Positions 7,595 to 25,550 of a stretch of DNA of 64,000 nt are shown here, one piece after another. The notes beneath the pieces are model-generated. The model ran no database searches. It saw only the letters and a list, made by a program, of their open reading frames with translations, and had not been told where the DNA came from. Numbering within the stretch: position 1 is the stretch's first letter; each line of letters starts with the position of its first letter. Position numbers and translations under genes: made by a program. Source of the stretch: Sphingobacteriaceae bacterium (GTDB taxonomy: Bacteria > Bacteroidota > Bacteroidia > Sphingobacteriales > Sphingobacteriaceae); the NCBI GenBank assembly GCA_947463785.1, contig CANHRG010000007.1:1-64000 (forward strand), written 5' to 3'.

Positions 7595-10150
7595 TTAGAA
7601 AGTAAACCCTAAACGGGCAAAGTACCTGCGACCGTTATAGTTCATTTGAACGGAATCCCAAGCACCACCGGCTTCGGTTAAGCCTTGATCTTGTTTATCT
7701 GGATAAACATTAAGTAAGTTGTCTGCTCCGAAATTGAAAGAGAGCGATTTACTCAATTTGTATCCAAAGGATAAATCGGTAGTTATTTTAGGAGTGTAAT
7801 ACATCGGACTATTATCCCATCCTCTTAATACAACATCACCAAAACGAACAATACGTAAAGAAGAAGTGAATTTTTTATTTGAATAATCAAAATTCAAATT
7901 CATCTTACTTCTTGGAGCAGATGCTTCAACAAATGCTCGTTCACGCTCACTAAAATAGGTATCCTCTTTTCCAGCCAATTTATCGTTGGTTTTAATATCC
8001 TGAATAGTTAGTTTGTTGAAATTGGCAGCAAAAGAAGTTACCAATCTACCATCAGCACCTACTGGCATATCGTGCGTTAATATCACATCAATACCACGGT
8101 TACGGCTATCAATAGCATTGGTAAAGAATTGCGCCTGGGTTACGCCAAGAGCTGTAAGATCAGCACCAATATCTGGATCATTATTAAAGAAACTTCCCGT
8201 TAAAACGATACGGTCTTTGATATTTACCTGATAGGCATCTACGGTAATGTTCAAATTATTTAACGGTTTCCAGGTAAATCCTAAGCTTTGGTTTACCGAT
8301 CGTTCTTGTTTTAAACGCTCAATACCTAAGGTACGAGTTACTGTACTTAAATTATTAGACAACAAAACTTCTGTTGGCTGTCCATTTACGAAATTGGTAA
8401 AAATGGTATTGAAATACGTTTGTTGTAAAGATGGGGCACGGAAACCAGTACTTACTGATCCACGCAGGTTAAAGGCATCTGAAAAACGGTAACGCATAGC
8501 CAATTTACCATTTAAGGTTCCACCAAAATCACTGTAGTTCTCATAACGAACAGCAGCGGTAACCAAATACTGTTTAGTTACATCCAATTCCACATCGGTA
8601 TAAGCTGCTAAATTGCTCCGGCTAACATTAACCTCGTTTCTTGGCTGAAAACCCGGGAAACCTTGCGATCCACCTGGGACAGGATTATTCGGGTCACTGT
8701 AGTTCTTATAAGAACCTTCCTCACCAGCAAAAATGGCATAACGATCTACCCGGTATTCAGTACCGAAAGCAACGTTTAAACCCGAAGCCACTTTATCGTA
8801 AGCTCTGGTAAAGTTGATACCGGTTGTGTTTTGCGCAAACTGGAAACCACCCGCGTCAAAGAAAGTTGGAGATTTAACACCTAAACTAGCGTTGTTGGTA
8901 CCATCTACATAATAATGCATTCGGTTGGTGCCAAACGTGTTGTTAAAATCTACATCCCAACCGTTCCATTTAGTTTTTATACCGGTAGAAATTGATTTAT
9001 CGTCAATATTGGATTGGATATGCGGATCAAATCCGTTCGGATATATGGCATCCACGTTATTATCAGCACCAGCATCGCGGCTCCAGGCGAATGCATCTGT
9101 AAAACGATTGCTGAAACCTCCAAAAGCGTAAATTTCTGTTTGATTGGAAACGGGCAGCGAAGCATTTACAAACGTACCGAAATCACGACCAGAGGCATCA
9201 CCAAATTGGCGACGGTAACTGGTAGATGGATCCTCCACACGTTTGGTTTTCTCATTATTTAAAAAGTTCATGGAGAAATTGATAAACCCTTTGTCTCCCA
9301 ATTGAGCTCCATAATTACCTGCAAATTGAACAGTTTGCCCATCAAAAGCTTTATCTGCATAACCCGGTGCATCGTATGCTCCGGTATTGATGAATCCGTT
9401 GAATTCGTTCACATTTTTCTTCAATACAATGTTCACCACACCGGCAATCGCATCCGAACCGTACTGTGCAGAAGCACCGTCTCTCAACACTTCTACGCGT
9501 TCAATTGAAGCAACAGGAATGGCATTTAAATCGGTTCCTGTATTACCACGTCCGCGAGTACCAAATAAATTGATTAATGAAGATTGGTGACGCCGTTTAC
9601 CATTAATCAATACCAAAGTTTGATCCGGACCTAAACCACGAATTGTAGCTGGGTCAATGTGATCGGCACCGTCAGAACCGGTTTGTTTGTTCGCATTAAA
9701 CGAGGGTGCAGCGTATTCTAGCAAACGGTTCATTTCTAATTTTCCGGTTTGCTTAATCACACTTTTCAAATCAATTACATCAACGGGAACAGCAGTTTCA
9801 GTGGCACTTCGGCGCAAGCTTCTAGATCCTACCACCACTACTTCACTTAAGGAAGTTGTATTTTCTTTTAGAATCACAGTAAATTCATTGGATTCAGGAA
9901 TGGTCAATTCTTGCGTTTGAAAGCCCAACATAAAAAACTTAATTACAGCAGCCTTACCACTCACTTCGAGTGAAAAGAAGCCATTGGCATTGGTTGCGGT
10001 TCCCTTGGTAGTACCTTTTTCGGAAACACTGACACCGGGTATCGGCAAACCCTGTGCATCGGTTACTTTACCCTGAATTTTTACTTGAGCAAGTAATCCA
10101 GATACAGAGAAAGCAACTACTAAAAACAAAAGCGTTAGTTTTTTCATCAT
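7595..10150 (-). CDS. TonB-dependent outer membrane receptor with carboxypeptidase-like N-terminal domain
   Basis: 851 residues. This family imports siderophores, vitamins or glycans across the outer membrane using TonB energy. A signal peptide (about 1-21) is followed by a carboxypeptidase-regulatory-like beta-sandwich (about 23-105, with GKVTDAQGLPIPGVSV). The plug domain follows (about 120-240, with TIRGLGPDQTLVLINGKRRH and LRDGASAQYGSDAIAGVVNI), then a long barrel ending in the aromatic motif RLGFTF. There is no SusD partner next to it and it is shorter than SusC proteins, so a glycan SusCD system is unlikely. The substrate cannot be read from the sequence. It stands alone between a terminator and an AT-rich divergent region shared with aconitase. 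Confidence 0.93.
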   Translation of the reverse strand: MMKKLTLLFLVVAFSVSGLLAQVKIQGKVTDAQGLPIPGVSVSEKGTTKGTATNANGFFSLEVSGKAAVIKFFMLGFQTQELTIPESNEFTVILKENTTSLSEVVVVGSRSLRRSATETAVPVDVIDLKSVIKQTGKLEMNRLLEYAAPSFNANKQTGSDGADHIDPATIRGLGPDQTLVLINGKRRHQSSLINLFGTRGRGNTGTDLNAIPVASIERVEVLRDGASAQYGSDAIAGVVNIVLKKNVNEFNGFINTGAYDAPGYADKAFDGQTVQFAGNYGAQLGDKGFINFSMNFLNNEKTKRVEDPSTSYRRQFGDASGRDFGTFVNASLPVSNQTEIYAFGGFSNRFTDAFAWSRDAGADNNVDAIYPNGFDPHIQSNIDDKSISTGIKTKWNGWDVDFNNTFGTNRMHYYVDGTNNASLGVKSPTFFDAGGFQFAQNTTGINFTRAYDKVASGLNVAFGTEYRVDRYAIFAGEEGSYKNYSDPNNPVPGGSQGFPGFQPRNEVNVSRSNLAAYTDVELDVTKQYLVTAAVRYENYSDFGGTLNGKLAMRYRFSDAFNLRGSVSTGFRAPSLQQTYFNTIFTNFVNGQPTEVLLSNNLSTVTRTLGIERLKQERSVNQSLGFTWKPLNNLNITVDAYQVNIKDRIVLTGSFFNNDPDIGADLTALGVTQAQFFTNAIDSRNRGIDVILTHDMPVGADGRLVTSFAANFNKLTIQDIKTNDKLAGKEDTYFSERERAFVEASAPRSKMNLNFDYSNKKFTSSLRIVRFGDVVLRGWDNSPMYYTPKITTDLSFGYKLSKSLSFNFGADNLLNVYPDKQDQGLTEAGGAWDSVQMNYNGRRYFARLGFTF

Positions 10151-10275
10151 AATACTAGTTAATCAAAATTTAATACGAAATTATATATAATCTATAGGAT
10201 AGAAAAATAAATTAAAGGTTAATTTTAATTAATTACACGAATCAACATATACCCCTTAAAAACACGCTTTTTTTG

Positions 10276-10283
10276 TATCTTTG
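10276..10283 (+). promoter_or_regulatory. Candidate -7 box for aconitase
   Basis: TATCTTTG matches the Bacteroidota -7 consensus TAnnTTTG and lies 45 bp before the aconitase ATG. No TTTG -33 element is seen at the usual distance, so this is a partial match. Confidence 0.5.
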
Positions 10284-10328
10284 CATCCGAAAAATCGAAA
10301 AAAAACAACAACTATCCACGCAAATACT

Positions 10329-12596
10329 ATGGCATTTGATTTAGACATGATTAAGAAAGTTTATCAAAACTTCGAGAGTCGCGTAGCCGCTGCTCGCAAA
10401 GTTGTAGGTAAACCACTCACATTGACTGAGAAAATTTTGTATGCTCACTTATGGGATGAAAAAACCGATAAAGCGTTTCAACGTGGACACGATTACGTAG
10501 ACTTTGCTCCCGATCGTGTTGCGATGCAAGACGCTACCGCACAAATGGCCCTGTTGCAGTTTATGCAGGCCGGTAGACCAAAGGTTGCGGTTCCATCAAC
10601 GGTACACTGCGATCACTTGATCATGGCTAAAGAAGGCGCCGATAAAGATTTAGATTTTGCTAAACACGAGAGTAAAGAGGTTTTCGACTTTTTATCTTCT
10701 GTATCCAATAAATACGGTATCGGTTTCTGGAAACCAGGAGCCGGAATTATTCACCAGGTAGTATTAGAAAATTATGCTTTCCCTGGCGGGATGATGATTG
10801 GTACCGACTCTCACACGGTTAATGCGGGTGGCTTGGGCATGGTGGCCATTGGTGTAGGTGGTGCAGATGCCTGCGATGTGATGGCCGGATTGCCTTGGGA
10901 ACTACGTTTCCCGAAACTAATTGGTGTGAAGCTGACCGGTAAATTAAACGGTTGGACTGCCCCTAAAGATGTGATCTTGAAAGTAGCCGGCATTTTAACC
11001 GTAAAAGGTGGAACGGGTTGTATTGTAGAATATTTTGGCGAAGGAGCTACCAGCATGAGCTGTACCGGTAAAGGAACCATTTGTAACATGGGTGCCGAAA
11101 TTGGTGCTACTACATCCACTTTCGGCTATGACGAAAGCATGGAACGTTACCTGCGTGCTACCGGCCGTGCCGAAGTAGCCGATATGGCCAATGGCATTAA
11201 ACAACATTTAACTGCCGATCCGGAAGTTTACGCTAACCCAGAGAACTACTTCGATCAGGTAATTGAAATTGACCTGAATACGCTTGAACCACATTTAAAC
11301 GGACCATTTACACCAGATTTGGCCACTCCGGTTTCTAAAATGAAAGCCGAAGCTGAGAAAAATAACTGGCCATTGAAAGTTGAGTGGGGATTAATCGGTT
11401 CTTGCACCAACTCCTCGTACGAAGATTTAAGTCGTGCTGCTTCTATTGCTAAACAAGCCGTAGATAAAGGATTGGTAACTAAAGCTGAATTCGGTATCAA
11501 TCCGGGTTCAGAACAAGTAAGATATACTGCAGAACGTGATGGTTTATTAACTACTTTCACTGATCTGAATGCCACCATATTTACCAATGCTTGCGGACCA
11601 TGTATTGGTATGTGGGATCGTGTGGGTGCTGAAAAAGCAGAAAAAAACACCATCGTACACTCCTTTAACAGAAACTTTGCCAAACGTGCCGATGGTAACC
11701 CGAATACCTATGCCTTTGTAGCTTCGCCAGAAATGGTTGCTGCCATTGCAATTTCAGGTAATTTAGGATTCAATCCATTAACCGATACGTTAACAAATTC
11801 AAAAGGCGAACAAGTAAAACTAGATCCTCCTACCGGAGATGAATTGCCAACCAAAGGTTTTGCGGTAGAAGATGCCGGCTATCAGGCTCCTGCTGCTGAT
11901 GGATCTAAAGTAGAGGTATTGGTTGCACCTACTTCCAGCCGTTTACAATTGCTAGATCCTTTCAAAGCTTGGGAAGGTACTGATCTAAGCGGTTTGAAAT
12001 TATTGATCAAAGCCAAAGGAAAATGTACTACCGACCACATCTCCATGGCCGGTCCATGGTTAAAATTTCGTGGTCACCTCGACAACATTTCGAACAATAT
12101 GTTGATCGGTGCGGTAAACTTCTTCAACGAAAAAACCGATAACGTTAAAAATCAGCTGACCGGAGAATATGGTCCTGTTCCAGCAACACAACGTGCCTAC
12201 AAAGCTGCCGGAATCGGATCTATTGTAGTAGGCGACGAGAACTATGGTGAAGGTTCATCACGTGAGCATGCTGCCATGGAGCCGCGTCATTTAGGTGTTC
12301 GTGCCGTACTGGTAAAATCATTTGCCCGTATCCACGAAACTAACCTGAAAAAACAAGGTATGTTGGCCTTAACTTTCGTCAACCCACAAGATTACGACCG
12401 TATTCAGGAAGACGATGTAATCGACATTTTAGGCTTAACCGACTTTACCGAAGGCAAACCCTTAACCGTGGTATTGCACCATGCAGATGGCGGAAGCATT
12501 TCTTTCCCGGTTAACCATACCTATAACGAACAACAAATTGAGTGGTTTAAAGCTGGTGGTGCCTTAAACATCATCCGTAAAAACCAGAACGCTTAA
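10329..12596 (+). CDS. Aconitate hydratase, mitochondrial type
   Basis: Isomerises citrate to isocitrate in the TCA cycle using a [4Fe-4S] cluster; cytosolic. I chose the ATG at 10329 (755 residues) over an upstream TTG at 10281, which falls inside the likely promoter. The three cluster-binding Cys are visible: Cys359 in GSCTNSS, and Cys422 and Cys425 in ACGPCIGMW. Also seen are VGTDSHT-like [11 protein letters not shown] and the C-terminal swivel domain with [11 protein letters not shown]. The length and motifs match the mitochondrial-type aconitases of Bacteroidota rather than bacterial AcnA (about 890) or AcnB. It is a single gene with its own terminator. Confidence 0.95.
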
Positions 12597-17004: not shown

Positions 17005-18040
17005 GTTGTTTTAGTAAATGATCAAAATCTTCCTTATCTGGTTCTTCAAAATCGGCCGCCACCGGTACTACATAAATTGGCAAATTTGCCAACTTCGCTG
17101 CAAGTTCAGGTGAGCGCAAACGCTGAGCATCCTTTTCGGTAGTGACAATGATTTTATCACGAGCCGTCAGCTGCTCAAATTCAGCAGCCAATTTAAGCAT
17201 ATTCTTTCTGGTGAACACATGATGATCAGGATAATCGTGATGCAGAAGGGTTGCTGAATAGCGATTTAATTCTTCCTTTAGAGGATCAGGATTTGCGATA
17301 CCAGTAATCAAAAGAATAGCTGTTTGCGCATTAATAGTAGTTAGCTTACGCGAAGCACCTTCACGTAGCGGAATCAAATCATCGTAACGTAAATGAGCAA
17401 AAAACAAGGCCTGATGTGCTTTGGGTTTTAGTTGTTTACGTACAGACAATTTTTCTGAAGAAGATAGACTTCTAGGCGATTTAGTGACTACAATAATATC
17501 GGCTCTGTTTTTGGCACACATAGGTTCTCTCATATTACCGGCAGGCAATAGAAAATCTAGTTTATACAAAGATGAATACTCGATCAATAAAATCTGAAAA
17601 CTGGGTTTCAAAGCCAGATGCTGGTAGGCATCGTCCAAGAGAATCAGGTTATGGTTTGGCTTTAACTGCTTAATCCCGAAAACACGGTCTTCGCAAACAG
17701 CTATGGTTTGATCTGGAAAATGTTGTTTAAACTGCAGAGGTTCATCGCCCGAATCGGCAATACTATCCTGAATATTAACCAAACGAAAACCCTTTGTTTT
17801 ACGGCCATAACCACGACTAAGCACCGCCAAATTGTAATCTTTTTTAAATAATTTGACCAGGTATTCGGTCATCGGACTTTTCCCCGCTCCACCAACAGCC
17901 AAATTTCCAACTACAATTACCGGCATCTGAAACGAAGTAGATGAGAACAATCCAGTTCTGTACGCCAAATTTCTAAGCAGTATTCCAAGCCCGTATAGCA
18001 GGGAAAGGGGTAACAAGAAATAACGTACGTATCGAATCAT
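16976..18040 (-). CDS. lpxK: Tetraacyldisaccharide 4'-kinase
   Basis: Phosphorylates the 4' position of the lipid A precursor with ATP, at the inner membrane. It has 354 residues. Residues about 7-25 form the N-terminal membrane anchor. The P-loop is VGNLAVGGAGKSPMTE, followed by SRGYGRKTKG and LDDAYQHLAL, the conserved Asp-rich segment of the family. VTKSPR lies further on. It is the first gene of the lpxK - PNP - Porin_10 unit. Its presence confirms a Gram-negative outer membrane with lipid A. Confidence 0.95.
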   Translation of the reverse strand: MIRYVRYFLLPLSLLYGLGILLRNLAYRTGLFSSTSFQMPVIVVGNLAVGGAGKSPMTEYLVKLFKKDYNLAVLSRGYGRKTKGFRLVNIQDSIADSGDEPLQFKQHFPDQTIAVCEDRVFGIKQLKPNHNLILLDDAYQHLALKPSFQILLIEYSSLYKLDFLLPAGNMREPMCAKNRADIIVVTKSPRSLSSSEKLSVRKQLKPKAHQALFFAHLRYDDLIPLREGASRKLTTINAQTAILLITGIANPDPLKEELNRYSATLLHHDYPDHHVFTRKNMLKLAAEFEQLTARDKIIVTTEKDAQRLRSPELAAKLANLPIYVVPVAADFEEPDKEDFDHLLKQHAREHTYNH

Positions 18041-18120
18041 ACCAATGGCTAAAATACATTTTTAAACTCAAATAAGGTCTGAGTGCTACTAAAGTAACGC
18101 TCTAGCAAGGCAAAAAAACC

Positions 18121-18128
18121 TATATTTG
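18121..18128 (+). promoter_or_regulatory. Candidate -7 box for pyrroline-5-carboxylate dehydrogenase
   Basis: TATATTTG is an exact TAnnTTTG match, 18 bp before the ATG at 18147. No clear TTTG lies at the -33 position. If used, the 5' leader would be only about 10 nt. Confidence 0.5.
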
Positions 18129-18146
18129 ACAAAAAAATTTGAGATC

Positions 18147-19781
18147 ATGTTAAAAGGATTTTTCAACGTGCCAACGCCTGTAAATGAAACCGTACTGAGT
18201 TATGCTCCGGGCAGTAAAGAGCGTACTTTGCTAAAAGCAGCCTTACAAGAAGCCCGTGCTCAACAAATTGACGTACCGATGTACATTGGCGGCAAGGAAG
18301 TTAGAACAGACAAAAAAGTGGCCATGCGACCTCCGCACGACCATCAACATATTTTAGGCTGCTACAGCCAGGGTGATAAAAGCCATGTGGAAGCGGCCAT
18401 TAAAGCTGCATTGGCAGCCAAAGCAGACTGGGAAGCTTTAGCTTGGGAACAAAGAGCCGCTATATTTTTGAAAGCTGCCGATTTAATTGCCGGGCCTTAC
18501 CGCTACAAAATTAATGCTGCAACCATGCTGGGCCAATCAAAAAACGCTTTTCAGGCAGAAATTGATGCTGCTTGTGAGCTGATTGATTTCTTACGCTTCA
18601 ATGTAAAATACATGAGCGAAATTTACCAGCACCAGCCACCGGTTTCGCCTCGAGGCACCTGGAACCGGGTTGAACAACGTCCGCTAGAAGGATTCGTATT
18701 TGCGTTAACACCTTTCAACTTTACGGCAATTGCCGGAAATCTTCCTACATCTGCTGCCATGATGGGCAATGTGGTGGTTTGGAAGCCATCCAATACGCAG
18801 ATTTATTCGGCCAATGTTTTGATGGAAATTTTCCGCGAAGCGGGATTGCCAGACGGTGTTATTAACTTGGTTTACGTATCGGGTCCGGATGCCGGAGATG
18901 TAATTTTCAAACACCGTGATTTTGCAGGTATTCACTTTACAGGATCCACAGGTGTGTTCCAGGATATTTGGAAAACCATTGGCAACAACATCCATCTCTA
19001 CAAATCATATCCAAGAATTGTAGGTGAAACCGGTGGTAAAGATTTTATTCTAGTACACGGTTCTGCCGATGTAGAAGCGGCCAATACAGCTATTGTTCGT
19101 GGCGCATTCGAATATCAAGGTCAAAAATGTTCGGCTGCTTCTAGAGTCTATATTGCTAAATCTGTTTGGCCAAAGTTGAAAGAACTGATGCTCCGTGATT
19201 TGGCTAGCATCAAAGTTGGACCTACAGAAGATTTCTCGAATTTTGTGAATGCAGTAATCGATGAAAAATCGTTTGATAAGCTTACTACTTACATTGATGC
19301 TGCGAAAAAAGATAGCAACTTGGAAGTAATTGCCGGGGGTAAGTACAACAAAAGCAAGGGTTATTTCATTGAACCAACAGTCATCGTTACCAAGGATCCG
19401 AAATACGTAACCATGTGCGAAGAGCTGTTCGGGCCGGTACTGACGATCTTTGTTTATGACGACGCAGATTTCGACAAAACTCTCGAAATTATGGATACAA
19501 CTTCAGACTATGCACTAACCGGTGCAGTGTTGGCCCAGGACCGTTATGTGATTGAAAAGGTAACTTATACTTTGAGAAACGCTGCCGGAAACTTCTACAT
19601 TAACGATAAATGTACCGGTGCCGTAGTTGGGCAACAACCTTTTGGCGGTGCCAGAGGTTCGGGTACGAACGACAAAGCCGGTTCGATGATCAATTTGCTG
19701 CGTTGGGTTTCACCACGTACCATCAAGGAAACCTTTGATCCGCCTAAGGATTACCGTTATCCTTTCCTGGAGCAGGAATAA
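18147..19781 (+). CDS. pruA: L-glutamate gamma-semialdehyde (1-pyrroline-5-carboxylate) dehydrogenase
   Basis: Oxidises glutamate semialdehyde to glutamate with NAD+, the second step of proline catabolism. I chose the ATG at 18147 (544 residues) over a TTG at 18126 that overlaps a likely promoter box. Aldehyde dehydrogenase landmarks are LTPFNFTAIAGN, VVWKPSN, HFTGSTGVF, the general base Glu294 in GETGGKD and the catalytic Cys328 in GQKCSAASR, exactly 34 residues apart as in the superfamily. CTGAVVGQQPFGGARGSGTNDKAG near the C-terminus is specific to this enzyme. No proline dehydrogenase gene is next to it. Confidence 0.95.
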   Translation: MLKGFFNVPTPVNETVLSYAPGSKERTLLKAALQEARAQQIDVPMYIGGKEVRTDKKVAMRPPHDHQHILGCYSQGDKSHVEAAIKAALAAKADWEALAWEQRAAIFLKAADLIAGPYRYKINAATMLGQSKNAFQAEIDAACELIDFLRFNVKYMSEIYQHQPPVSPRGTWNRVEQRPLEGFVFALTPFNFTAIAGNLPTSAAMMGNVVVWKPSNTQIYSANVLMEIFREAGLPDGVINLVYVSGPDAGDVIFKHRDFAGIHFTGSTGVFQDIWKTIGNNIHLYKSYPRIVGETGGKDFILVHGSADVEAANTAIVRGAFEYQGQKCSAASRVYIAKSVWPKLKELMLRDLASIKVGPTEDFSNFVNAVIDEKSFDKLTTYIDAAKKDSNLEVIAGGKYNKSKGYFIEPTVIVTKDPKYVTMCEELFGPVLTIFVYDDADFDKTLEIMDTTSDYALTGAVLAQDRYVIEKVTYTLRNAAGNFYINDKCTGAVVGQQPFGGARGSGTNDKAGSMINLLRWVSPRTIKETFDPPKDYRYPFLEQE

Positions 19782-19807
19782 TCAGATCATTCCATATTTT
19801 TTCCTGA

Positions 19808-19836
19808 AGCCTTCCTTAAAAATGGAAGGCTTTTTT
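19808..19836 (+). terminator. Terminator after the P5C dehydrogenase gene
   Basis: 8-bp arms AGCCTTCC and GGAAGGCT with an A/T loop (19808-19831) are followed by six T. Confidence 0.85.
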
Positions 19837-19896
19837 GTTTTTTCTAAAACAATTTAGAGCAATTGGGGCTTTCCTTACTTGAAATATTGCTCAGTA

Positions 19897-21615
19897 ATGA
19901 AAAAAATTATTTACTCTCTAATGATCCTGGTTCTGACTTTATGGGCTTGCAGTAAGGAAGATTCAGGAATCCAATCGGAGCCAGGCATTTTAAAAACAGT
20001 CTTTAAAGACCAGCATTTGGCGTTTGCCTCGAGAACAGATTTTCAAAGCCAACTTCAAAAGTTCAAATCGATTGAATCCAAGGCTAGCCTGACGTCAATA
20101 CCGGTTCAAGAGCAATTTTATTCCTTGTTGAAATTTGAAACAGAGACCTCTGAGGAGCGTATGATTGCCATCATGGATAATTATCTCTCCTCCAAACAGA
20201 AAAGCGGAGTTGATAAAAAGGCCGATAGTTTGGTTTATGCCATCTTACTCAGCGAGTTGATTGAGAGCGATGCCCTGAAAAACCTCATTAATGTGAGAGG
20301 TGAAGTGCAAATTGGGGATAGTCTGTATAAAATAACTCCTCTTGGAACACTGTCCTGCCACATTAGGCATCAGAAGGATTTGTTGAGGGTATATGAACAG
20401 CTTAGTTCGTTGAATGGATTGATTTTTCGACTCGAAGAACCGAATGCTAAGTTAAAATTTGGGAGTCTGAGTATACAACCATCTGAATTGGCAGGAGTTC
20501 TAATAGTAGAAAATGTAGTTTACTTCACAGATACTTTCAGGGATGAAGGAGAAAACTATTTTCGTCTTCCTGAGCTGGAAGATGGTGGTGGGGGCGGCGG
20601 AAGCGGCGGTGGCGGGAGTCCACCTCCTCCCCCTCCAGAAAATGATGATCCGTTTGGGAATATGAAAGAAGAACCCATTGATTTTAGAGAAGGTATTCTG
20701 AATATGTGGGATACTGTCAGGAAAAATCGGACCAGATATAGATACTTCGATAATAAACATAGAATTTCTGTATTATTTTATAACCGCAATTATTTGGGAT
20801 TTAAATCTTTGGGTATTAAAGTCAAGTTACAGAAGAAAGGCTTGTTTTGGTGGAATAAAACCGAAGCCCAAGAGATTATAGCAGGTTGGGAAAGGATGGT
20901 TTATAAACAGGCCAACGCCATTCCTAGCTTCAGTCGTCCACAAAACGAACCACCTGTATTTGCTAGTCCTTATTCCATTAATCCATATGACCCACCGGCA
21001 AACGGATGGTTTACCCAAAATTACGCCTCACTATACGAGTGGCATTTTGCCGAATCATCTCAAGAACTATTTTCCATTGTCATCCCACAATACCTATTAC
21101 CCTTAACTGAAGAGGATAAATCAATTCCATCAAGTGAGTTCAAACCTTTGATATTAGAGGGTTGGAGAAAATTGAAACAGGTTTTACAAAGATCTGTACC
21201 CATGTCGGCATCCGGAGATCCGGACAATTACCCTTTTCCAGTTCATGATATCAATACAGGCAGAACACGCACGCTCTCTATTAATCAAATGGAAAATATG
21301 CCCAAAGCATTCAATTCTGTACCATCGGCTAGACAACTATTGTTCCCAGGTCAAAAGATAAGAACCTATTTATCTCCTTATTATGAAAGAAAAAAGAATG
21401 TAAAAAAGATTGAATTTGATCTCGATTTTTCCACCGCAACTGTCAAATTGAATTACAATCTGGCATCTCCTCTCTCGGTGAAAAGTGTGTTGAATTCTTT
21501 AGAGATTTCCGATTTAGACAACTCTTATGAAGTTGAAGATGCAGATGTATTCGGAACAGTAAAATATAATGGGAGATGGTTAGGTATTCGTTTAATAGTT
21601 CAAGTAAATGATTAA
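19897..21615 (+). CDS. Large hypothetical lipoprotein with Gly/Ser-Pro linker
   Basis: 572 residues from the ATG at 19897; not recognised. The signal ends in lipobox LWAC with Cys18, followed by SKED, so it is likely a membrane-anchored lipoprotein. Residues 19-228 form an N-terminal region of mixed helix and strand. Residues about 229-248 are a run of Gly and Ser followed by six Pro, a flexible linker. Residues about 250-572 form a second region rich in Tyr, Trp, Phe and Pro (LFWWNK, ANGWF). It lies just ahead of three small beta-barrel-like genes on the same strand (gap to the first, 2 bp), suggesting a common envelope function. Confidence 0.7.
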   Translation: MKKIIYSLMILVLTLWACSKEDSGIQSEPGILKTVFKDQHLAFASRTDFQSQLQKFKSIESKASLTSIPVQEQFYSLLKFETETSEERMIAIMDNYLSSKQKSGVDKKADSLVYAILLSELIESDALKNLINVRGEVQIGDSLYKITPLGTLSCHIRHQKDLLRVYEQLSSLNGLIFRLEEPNAKLKFGSLSIQPSELAGVLIVENVVYFTDTFRDEGENYFRLPELEDGGGGGGSGGGGSPPPPPPENDDPFGNMKEEPIDFREGILNMWDTVRKNRTRYRYFDNKHRISVLFYNRNYLGFKSLGIKVKLQKKGLFWWNKTEAQEIIAGWERMVYKQANAIPSFSRPQNEPPVFASPYSINPYDPPANGWFTQNYASLYEWHFAESSQELFSIVIPQYLLPLTEEDKSIPSSEFKPLILEGWRKLKQVLQRSVPMSASGDPDNYPFPVHDINTGRTRTLSINQMENMPKAFNSVPSARQLLFPGQKIRTYLSPYYERKKNVKKIEFDLDFSTATVKLNYNLASPLSVKSVLNSLEISDLDNSYEVEDADVFGTVKYNGRWLGIRLIVQVND

Positions 21616-21617
21616 AA

Positions 21618-22247
21618 ATGAAAGCTAAATTACTCTCATTCATGCTGTTTTTTTCATTTCAAAGTTTAATACATGGACAAGAGCGAATAAGAACTACTGT
21701 ATTTAACATCACCGAAATAGGTGCATATTTTGGGAGCAGGGATAAATTGATAAAGGAGGAATTTCATGAAAGCGTTTCGGATACTCATACAGCATACATA
21801 ATTAGTTTTAGAAATATAAGAGGATGGGAGTTCAATCGAAAATTTTCTTTGGGACTGGGAATCGGATATGAAGGTGTAATAGTTAAAGGCGCTAAAAACC
21901 CCGACCAATTGATGGTAGAAGGAGATTACAGGTATTATACCTACAAGTATACGCCTGGGACTTACTATCATACCATTCCTATTTTCGGTCAGGCAAAATA
22001 CTATTTCAGAAAACATCCAGAATCTGCATTCATCCATTCGAGTCTCGGAAGCTTTTTGAATTTGAACCGGAATGTCAGTAAAAGTTTATTGCTGTGGGGA
22101 TTAGGAATTGGACAACAATATAAAATAGGATCTGGAGCTCTCTTCAGCATCGGAATAGATTTTCAGGAAAGATATCTCATCACATCACAAAACGAAAAAC
22201 AAAGGATTTCTGGAATTGGGCTATGTGTAGGATTACTTTTTAATTGA
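21618..22247 (+). CDS. Small outer membrane beta-barrel-like hypothetical protein
   Basis: 209 residues of unknown function. A signal peptide (about 1-20, ending IHG-Q) is followed by alternating hydrophobic and polar residues with many Gly, Tyr and Phe, and the chain ends LCVGLLFN, a usual barrel C-terminus. IPIFGQAKYYFRKHPESAF and SSLGSF recur almost unchanged in the next gene, so the two are paralogues. It starts 2 bp after the large lipoprotein gene and is probably translated from the same mRNA. Family by architecture only. Confidence 0.68.
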   Translation: MKAKLLSFMLFFSFQSLIHGQERIRTTVFNITEIGAYFGSRDKLIKEEFHESVSDTHTAYIISFRNIRGWEFNRKFSLGLGIGYEGVIVKGAKNPDQLMVEGDYRYYTYKYTPGTYYHTIPIFGQAKYYFRKHPESAFIHSSLGSFLNLNRNVSKSLLLWGLGIGQQYKIGSGALFSIGIDFQERYLITSQNEKQRISGIGLCVGLLFN

Positions 22248-22346: not shown

Positions 22347-22982
22347 ATGAATAAAATCGCAATCCTTTGTTTAATGATAGCTACTGTAAATTGGGGAGCT
22401 AGTGCCCAAGAGCAGCCAGTAAACATCCATATAGTAGAGTTGGGAATCGCTTTTGGTGGCAGATACTATGATGAGTCAACCGGGCCCAATGGCAATAAAT
22501 CCCACAACGAGACCGTAAAAGCCCTATCACTGTTTTATACTTATGGATGGCAATTAAGCCAGCGTTTCTTTGCAGGTATAGGTTCCGGTTACAAACACCT
22601 GAATGTTGGACCAGATTATAAAGAGGAAATTGTGGTTATTGACGGGATTAGTTATGAAAAAAGGGTAAATGTCCCGGTGCCGTCATATGATCTGATCCCT
22701 ATCTTCGGGCAAACCAGGTTTTATTTTAGGAAAAAGCCTGAGTCAGCTTATCTCAGTGCCAGTTTGGGTAGTTTTTTCAAATTGGATCAGCATGAAGGCA
22801 AACCCAGATTGTATTGGGAACTGGGGCTGGGGTAGCGCTACAAACTTTCGTCAACAAAATCCATTACCTGGAGCCTTAATTTCAACGAGTTTTATCTATT
22901 TAGAAAAAAACAGGGATTTAATGAACCGAATGAAAACCCGAGGATCGCCTTAATGGACCTGAGAATCGGAATACAATTCTAA
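22347..22982 (+). pseudogene. Beta-barrel-like paralogue interrupted by an in-frame TAG
   Basis: The ATG frame from 22347 codes a signal peptide (ending ASA-Q) and 162 residues, then meets TAG at 22833-22835. Beyond the TAG the same frame stays open for 48 codons to TAA at 22980-22982 and reads as a proper barrel end (RYKLSS, then SLNFNEFYLF, ending LRIGIQF). The upstream paralogue has GLGIGQQYKIG where this gene has GLG-stop-RYKLS, so the stop replaces a Gln codon, consistent with one CAG-to-TAG change. No frameshift is needed. It could be a recent pseudogene, a read-through product, a phase or population variant, or a sequencing error. Confidence 0.8.
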
Positions 22983-23011: not shown

Positions 23012-23551
23012 ATGAAAAAATTAATAGCCACAGCCATACTTATTGGCTGCCTTAATGCTCAACAATTAGCTAAGGCCCAGAAAATTAAGAGGTTCAGTAA
23101 CCATACGGGTATCAGTTATTATTTTGGCATACCTGATAAGCAGCATGAAAAAAGAGGGGGTATGACCAACATAAGCACCACCTTCAATTACAAGATCAAA
23201 CCAAATTATGGTCTTGGTGTGGGTGTAAGTCAAGGAAATCTGGAAGAGTATCCTGATTCATTTGGTTATAATTTGTTTTCTGTTTTTCTAGATAGCCGAT
23301 ATTTTTTTGAAAACAAGCTGAAGGGTGCAGAAATTTATTTCAATCCGGGTTATGCTTTCAAAATAGATCCGGCATGGCGTGAAGGATTGATGTTGGGCAT
23401 AGGCGCCTCCTACCCTTTTAGTCGAAGGAAACACTCCAACTGGAACTTAAGTTTTAATTACCGTTACCAAGAAATAAAATCCTATAATCCTGAGTTTTCA
23501 CCAACAAGACTCCATCAAATCGGCTTTGGAGTGGGAATAACGTTTAACTGA
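23012..23551 (+). CDS. Small outer membrane beta-barrel-like hypothetical protein
   Basis: 179 residues of unknown function. A signal peptide (about 1-22, ending AKA-Q) precedes a chain of short amphipathic strands with Gly-rich turns (GLGVGVSQGN, LMLGIGASYPF) and the C-terminus FGVGITFN, a standard outer-membrane insertion signal. It shares the layout, but little sequence, with the two genes upstream. It lies 29 bp after the interrupted paralogue and ends 10 bp from the converging carbonic anhydrase gene, closing the cassette. Confidence 0.68.
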   Translation: MKKLIATAILIGCLNAQQLAKAQKIKRFSNHTGISYYFGIPDKQHEKRGGMTNISTTFNYKIKPNYGLGVGVSQGNLEEYPDSFGYNLFSVFLDSRYFFENKLKGAEIYFNPGYAFKIDPAWREGLMLGIGASYPFSRRKHSNWNLSFNYRYQEIKSYNPEFSPTRLHQIGFGVGITFN

Positions 23552-24302: not shown

Positions 24303-25550
24303 GTGAAGAAATTTATTGCTGCAATCATCTTTTTAGCAGGTTTACCAGTTTTTTTGAAGGCTCAAAGCAATAATACACCGTCTGATTATAACCCTCACGA
24401 TCTCAAAATCAGCGGCTATCTTCAATTTCAATACCAAAAAGCACAGGAGAAAGGAGCACCATCGTTCTCAGGTGGTGACTTTTCTGAAGAAGTGAACAAT
24501 CGGTTTATGATTCGAAGAGGGCGTTTCAAGTTTGACCGGGTAGACGAGTATACCAATATCGTTTTTCAATTGGATGCAACACAGGATGGAGTAAGTTTAA
24601 GAGATGCTTTTATTCAAGTAAAAGATCCGAAATGGAAAATTTTTACCTTAACCGCTGGGCAATTCACTAAACCTTTTGGATACATTCTCTCCTATTCATC
24701 CGCAAACAGAGAACTACCCGAACGCCCCCGTTTACATCAAACTCTGATGCCCAGCGAGCGTGATCTGGGCGCCATGCTGGATATTAAACTACCTGCATTA
24801 CCTTTTCTGAACTATGAAATTGGCTTTTTTAATGGCTCTGGAATAAACGCCAAAGATTACGATAGCAAAAAAGACTTATCAACTACATTACAATTCAATT
24901 TCAATGAACTCAAAAAAAATTGGAACCTATCTTATGGACTGTCGTACTACAAGGGATTTGTTCGCTCAGGCACCAATACGGTTTACCAAAACGGTTTAAT
25001 AAATGGACAAAAAGGCTTTTTAGCAGAAACAGCTGCAACTAACAATGGAACCTATGCATCCAGACGGTATTACGGATTAAACTTACAAACTGACATTAAA
25101 ACAGGCTGGGGCAAGACCAATGTAAAGGCCGAATTCATTAGCGGATCGCAACCAGGGCAGGCATCATCAAGCACAATTACTGCAGCCCAGGCAAGCAGAA
25201 GTTTGGGTACACAAGCTCCTACAGATCTATATAACCGAAAATTTAAGGGCTATATGATTTGGCTAGTTCAGGAAATACCTAATACCGAATTGCAATGGCT
25301 AATGAGCTTTGACAGCTACGATCCGAATAGCTTTGTAAAAGGAACTGAAATTGGTAAAACAGGTACTAACACCAGTTCAGGAGATATTCGATTTAATACA
25401 TTTGGGAGTGGATTGGTGTACTACTTCAGCAAACAGATGAAGTTTACGGTTTTCTACGATCATCCCATAAATGAAACCACAAGTTTGAGTGGCTACACCC
25501 GCGATATAAGAGACGATTTATTCACATTAAGAGCACAATATCGTTTCTAA
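24303..25550 (+). CDS. Porin, phosphate-selective O/P family
   Basis: 415 residues forming an outer-membrane channel. The start is GTG at 24303: it gives a clean signal peptide (about 1-20, ending LKA-Q), and the next in-frame Met lies deep in the barrel. Typical family segments are LKISGYLQFQYQ, NRFMIRRGRFKF, QLDATQDG and LTAGQFTKPFGY. The chain ends LRAQYRF, a barrel C-terminus. Members exchange phosphate or other anions, but specificity here is not readable. The neighbours do not suggest a phosphate regulon. Confidence 0.88.
   Translation: MKKFIAAIIFLAGLPVFLKAQSNNTPSDYNPHDLKISGYLQFQYQKAQEKGAPSFSGGDFSEEVNNRFMIRRGRFKFDRVDEYTNIVFQLDATQDGVSLRDAFIQVKDPKWKIFTLTAGQFTKPFGYILSYSSANRELPERPRLHQTLMPSERDLGAMLDIKLPALPFLNYEIGFFNGSGINAKDYDSKKDLSTTLQFNFNELKKNWNLSYGLSYYKGFVRSGTNTVYQNGLINGQKGFLAETAATNNGTYASRRYYGLNLQTDIKTGWGKTNVKAEFISGSQPGQASSSTITAAQASRSLGTQAPTDLYNRKFKGYMIWLVQEIPNTELQWLMSFDSYDPNSFVKGTEIGKTGTNTSSGDIRFNTFGSGLVYYFSKQMKFTVFYDHPINETTSLSGYTRDIRDDLFTLRAQYRF

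Follow-up and report, generated by a model that had tools for sequence, protein, structure and literature searches.

A premature TAG codon in a predicted outer-membrane barrel gene of a Sphingobacteriaceae bacterium probably marks a young pseudogene

We analysed a 64,000-nucleotide stretch of contig CANHRG010000007.1 from a Sphingobacteriaceae bacterium, hereafter the window, in which a predicted barrel gene is interrupted by an in-frame TAG while its reading frame stays intact to a normal barrel end. Our analysis favours a nonsense mutation that arose recently in a dispensable copy of the gene, which makes the gene a probable young pseudogene in an accessory, fast-turning cassette of surface-protein genes. 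The relevant features, all on the plus strand, are as follows.

19879-21615, +, 578-aa gene of the same accessory cassette, upstream; in the congener G005, remnants of its C-terminus are all that was found
21618-22247, +, intact neighbouring paralogue, 209 aa, with Gln at the aligned site
22347-22835, +, truncated reading frame, 162 aa: an N-terminal signal-like segment, then barrel strands 1-5 and most of strand 6 (predicted)
22833-22835, +, premature TAG, aligned with Gln codons in the relatives (CAG, CAG and CAA)
22836-22982, +, undecayed 3' remainder, 48 codons and TAA: the rest of strand 6, strands 7-8 and the terminal Phe (predicted)
23012-23551, +, small intact barrel-like gene downstream, 179 aa, 65% identical to a syntenic 180-aa gene of G005

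Results

The frame that opens at the ATG at 22347 runs for 162 codons to the TAG at 22833-22835, continues for 48 sense codons whose last residues are ...LRIGIQF, and closes with a TAA at 22980-22982. Sequence and homology both confirm the first-pass annotation on this point, which had described 48 open codons that read as a normal barrel end. Openness past the TAG is weak evidence by itself, since at least 48 open codons also follow the stop in 33 of the 239 genes that we sampled in 284 kb (the window plus eleven 20-kb stretches, 40.8% G+C). The highest-scoring of these open extensions are apparently separate downstream genes, which have a Met of their own close to where they begin. The observation is carried by homology past the TAG rather than by the openness of the frame. 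Codon usage does not discriminate between the two parts of the gene (codon adaptation index 0.62 before the stop and 0.59 after), and the codon log-odds score is lower after the TAG (-0.01 vs 0.15 before), with only 48 codons behind the after-stop figure. The gene contains no frameshift and no second stop, which counts against a pseudogene, since neither mark of decay is present.

Syntenic barrel genes are present in the congener G005, on the minus strand of its contig L043 at 9734-10372 and 8918-9586. Both copies, together with the neighbouring paralogue, align across the TAG without a change of frame. Over the 48 codons that follow the stop, ungapped identity to the ends of the two G005 copies is 60% and 62%, and identity to the neighbouring paralogue is 33%; before the stop, the figures for the G005 copies are 51% and 42%. 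The codon aligned to the TAG is CAA in the neighbour, which bears out the earlier statement that this paralogue has Gln there, and CAG in both G005 copies, the related locus at which that annotation had proposed to look. With Gln at this position in each of the three close relatives, a single C-to-T change explains the TAG, in agreement with the CAG-to-TAG substitution that had been suggested. More distant members of the family carry Tyr, His, Asn, Trp or other residues, and a stop at this position is common to none of the relatives examined. The gene thus has an in-frame stop where intact homologues carry a sense codon, as expected of a nonsense pseudogene. A family profile matches it full length across the stop (E 2.5e-110, with one TAG); because the gene is itself one of the four rows of this profile, only the full-length span of the match is informative. 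Across 301 sampled genomes of the taxonomic family, full-length close relatives of the barrel occur only in its own genus.

Using the paralogue at 21618-22247 as outgroup, we counted the amino-acid changes unique to each copy. Over the whole gene, the TAG copy has 32 unique changes vs 16 for one G005 copy (p=0.03) and 23 vs 11 for the other (p=0.06); in the 48 codons after the stop, the counts are 6 vs 1 (p=0.13) and 7 vs 1 (p=0.07). This asymmetry, which is weak and depends on the paralogue as outgroup, is a faint hint that constraint on the TAG copy may have relaxed.

We compared the locus across the genus. The cassette is flanked at 18126-19781 by what we take to be a delta-1-pyrroline-5-carboxylate-dehydrogenase-like gene and at 24303-25550 by a presumably porin-like gene (415 aa). 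In the congener G004 the cassette is absent and these two genes adjoin, about 60 bases apart; G001 and G003 carry the dehydrogenase-like flank and give no match to the porin-like one. In G005, remnants of the C-terminus of the 578-aa gene lie ahead of each barrel copy (the second being a weak match, E 0.003), an interior segment of the 179-aa gene lies between the two copies, and an antisense carbonic-anhydrase remnant with stops lies near them. The decayed fragments at L043:9582-9719 and 10332-10553 are counterparts of intact genes of the window. With such decayed pieces of cassette genes in G005, gene birth and decay are usual at this locus. Cassette genes have been gained, duplicated and lost repeatedly within the genus, and the locus, empty in G004 and holding decayed pieces in G005, is accessory and dispensable.

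Two further observations concern the cassette genes themselves. The tandem barrel copies of G005 (L043:8918-10372) are 92-98% identical in their 3' parts and 30-56% identical in their 5' parts, with a sharp boundary near alignment column 350, a pattern such as might be left by gene conversion or partial tandem duplication. The 578-aa gene of the window contains a glycine-rich and proline-rich linker, GGGGGGSGGGGSPPPPPP, and has no Pfam match over the cut-off; in its place, G005 has frames of 308 aa and 117 aa.

Alternatively, assembly or sequencing may have introduced the TAG in error, or it may be carried by a minority strain, the genome probably being a metagenome-assembled one (MAG), with Gln in most cells. 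The genome is in 15 contigs, that of G005 is itself a MAG, and the frame downstream of the TAG is wholly intact, all of which would fit. A second assembly comes close to the site: the 5-kb contig CANHCC010000190.1 (L087) of another MAG is identical to window positions 17708-22098, with 0 mismatches over 4391 bases, and breaks inside the neighbouring paralogue, 735 bases before the TAG. This exact match means that the public MAG RE-18aug17-270 contains this strain or one very close to it; the rest of its genome is without a match. Scans of genome contigs for the TAG site returned only G005 and this contig ending before the stop, and viral contigs gave no match covering the site. Against an error or variant, the site gives no positive sign of one: coding sequence is normal on both sides of the TAG, without a frameshift, and a false substitution that happens to create a stop is a priori rare. 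We regard such an origin as unlikely, and a genuine recent mutation as the better account.

We also asked how the TAG is decoded, since the intact frame beyond it would equally suit read-through by a near-cognate Gln tRNA or a suppressor, yielding some full-length barrel. A tRNA search of the genome gave 39 tRNA-like matches, 37 of them over the cut-off, and ARAGORN together with inspection of the weak and contig-end matches found no CUA anticodon among the 39. Of the two weak matches, one corresponds to the 3' part of tmRNA, and the below-cut-off match at C4:98015-98084 reads UAC, not CUA. The tRNA set falls slightly short of complete: the expected tRNA-Ile(GAT) and tRNA-Ala(TGC) are missing from the assembly, probably along with the rRNA operons. 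A few low-scoring ARAGORN matches with CTA, TTA or TCA anticodons appeared only at a relaxed 80% threshold (scores 28-39), are probably due to chance, and were gone at 90%. The gene for RF1, prfA, is intact (493.8 bits, no stops). With RF1 intact and no CUA anticodon among the matches, the suppressor tRNA entertained in the first-pass annotation finds no support.

The prfB gene (RF2) is likewise intact, and TAG ends 33 of the 239 sampled genes (about 14%, the barrel gene itself counted), and in six of these the next base is likewise C. Stop reassignment is ruled out by the intact release factors and this ordinary use of TAG as a terminator, and the genetic code of the genome is normal. Among the top-scoring extensions in the 284 kb there is no second gene with a similar in-frame stop. 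A structured read-through element is also ruled out: the 100 bases after the TAG fold no better than shuffled sequences (z +0.9). The base after the TAG is C, not U, which suits read-through in that a following U reduces it in E. coli, as one study reports (PMC5289835). Near-cognate insertion of Gln, Tyr or Lys at TAG occurs in E. coli (PMC11126739), and trace read-through is for this reason possible in any bacterium; nothing here points to more than a trace. With no CUA tRNA found, RF1 intact, TAG a common terminator, no similar gene in the 284 kb, no downstream structure and a stop shared with no relative, we consider read-through very improbable. Were it real, it would amount to programmed read-through of TAG under the standard bacterial code, but the evidence is against it. 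A leaky, regulated stop that gives a little complete barrel under conditions favouring read-through has scarcely any probability. Bacterial systems of UAG suppression or reassignment resemble this case in having an in-frame TAG at a Gln position; they differ in that here no suppressor tRNA was found, RF1 is present, TAG is a terminator and a single gene is affected.

We modelled the read-through protein with AlphaFold, aligned with the three relatives. The model (mean pLDDT 79) has eight membrane strands and one extra hairpin, and its PDB matches in Foldseek are outer-membrane barrels including NspA, the OmpA transmembrane domain, Ail and OmpW. With eight antiparallel strands and a final F, the aromatic end typical of the class, the read-through product is predicted to be an eight-stranded outer-membrane barrel. 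It shares strand number and topology, as predicted, with those small barrels, and differs from them in matching no Pfam or NCBIfam family and in having its close full-length relatives, among the 301 sampled genomes, in a single genus. The TAG lies within the predicted strand 153-166, strand 6, so that the 162-residue product would stop short of completing strand 6 and would have neither strands 7 and 8 nor the terminal Phe; a part essential to the fold is thus predicted to be lost. In the known pathway, BamA uses its N-terminal strand to pair with the C-terminal strand of its substrate (PMC12611786); because that substrate strand is missing, the truncated product should not assemble.

We consider it very improbable that selection maintains the 162-aa form as a shorter functional protein. 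Its first 162 codons are open and use codons as the neighbouring genes do, but the cut inside a strand is predicted to leave an unclosed barrel, and the three close relatives all extend past the TAG point. The unused end can still be recognised as that of a barrel, which leaves little time for a short form to have specialised.

Discussion

Among the origins named by the first-pass annotation, a recent mutation, read-through or a suppressor, the first is the best; the suppressor is unsupported and read-through lacks positive evidence. We infer that function has been lost, that the product is degraded and that the event is recent. The gene belongs to a tandem pair, within an accessory cassette, that encodes a predicted eight-stranded outer-membrane barrel restricted to this lineage. 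A single C-to-T substitution would have turned a CAG Gln codon into TAG inside strand 6, and RF1 would end translation there. Deprived of strands 7 and 8 and of the aromatic residue that ends the BamA-pairing strand, the product would fail to insert and be degraded, which would make the gene a young pseudogene; the loss may be tolerable thanks to the intact neighbour or other barrels.

Nonsense pseudogenes that arise when a recent duplicate acquires a single premature stop offer a close comparison, with one substitution, an intact remainder, a paralogue nearby and a locus of turnover. The window gene differs from them in showing no clear decay past the stop yet, and in being known from one genome only. 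A single premature stop in an accessory gene copy is an ordinary kind of event. The case matters little in itself, and adds one more example of gene turnover in the surface-protein cassettes of a Bacteroidota bacterium with a small genome.
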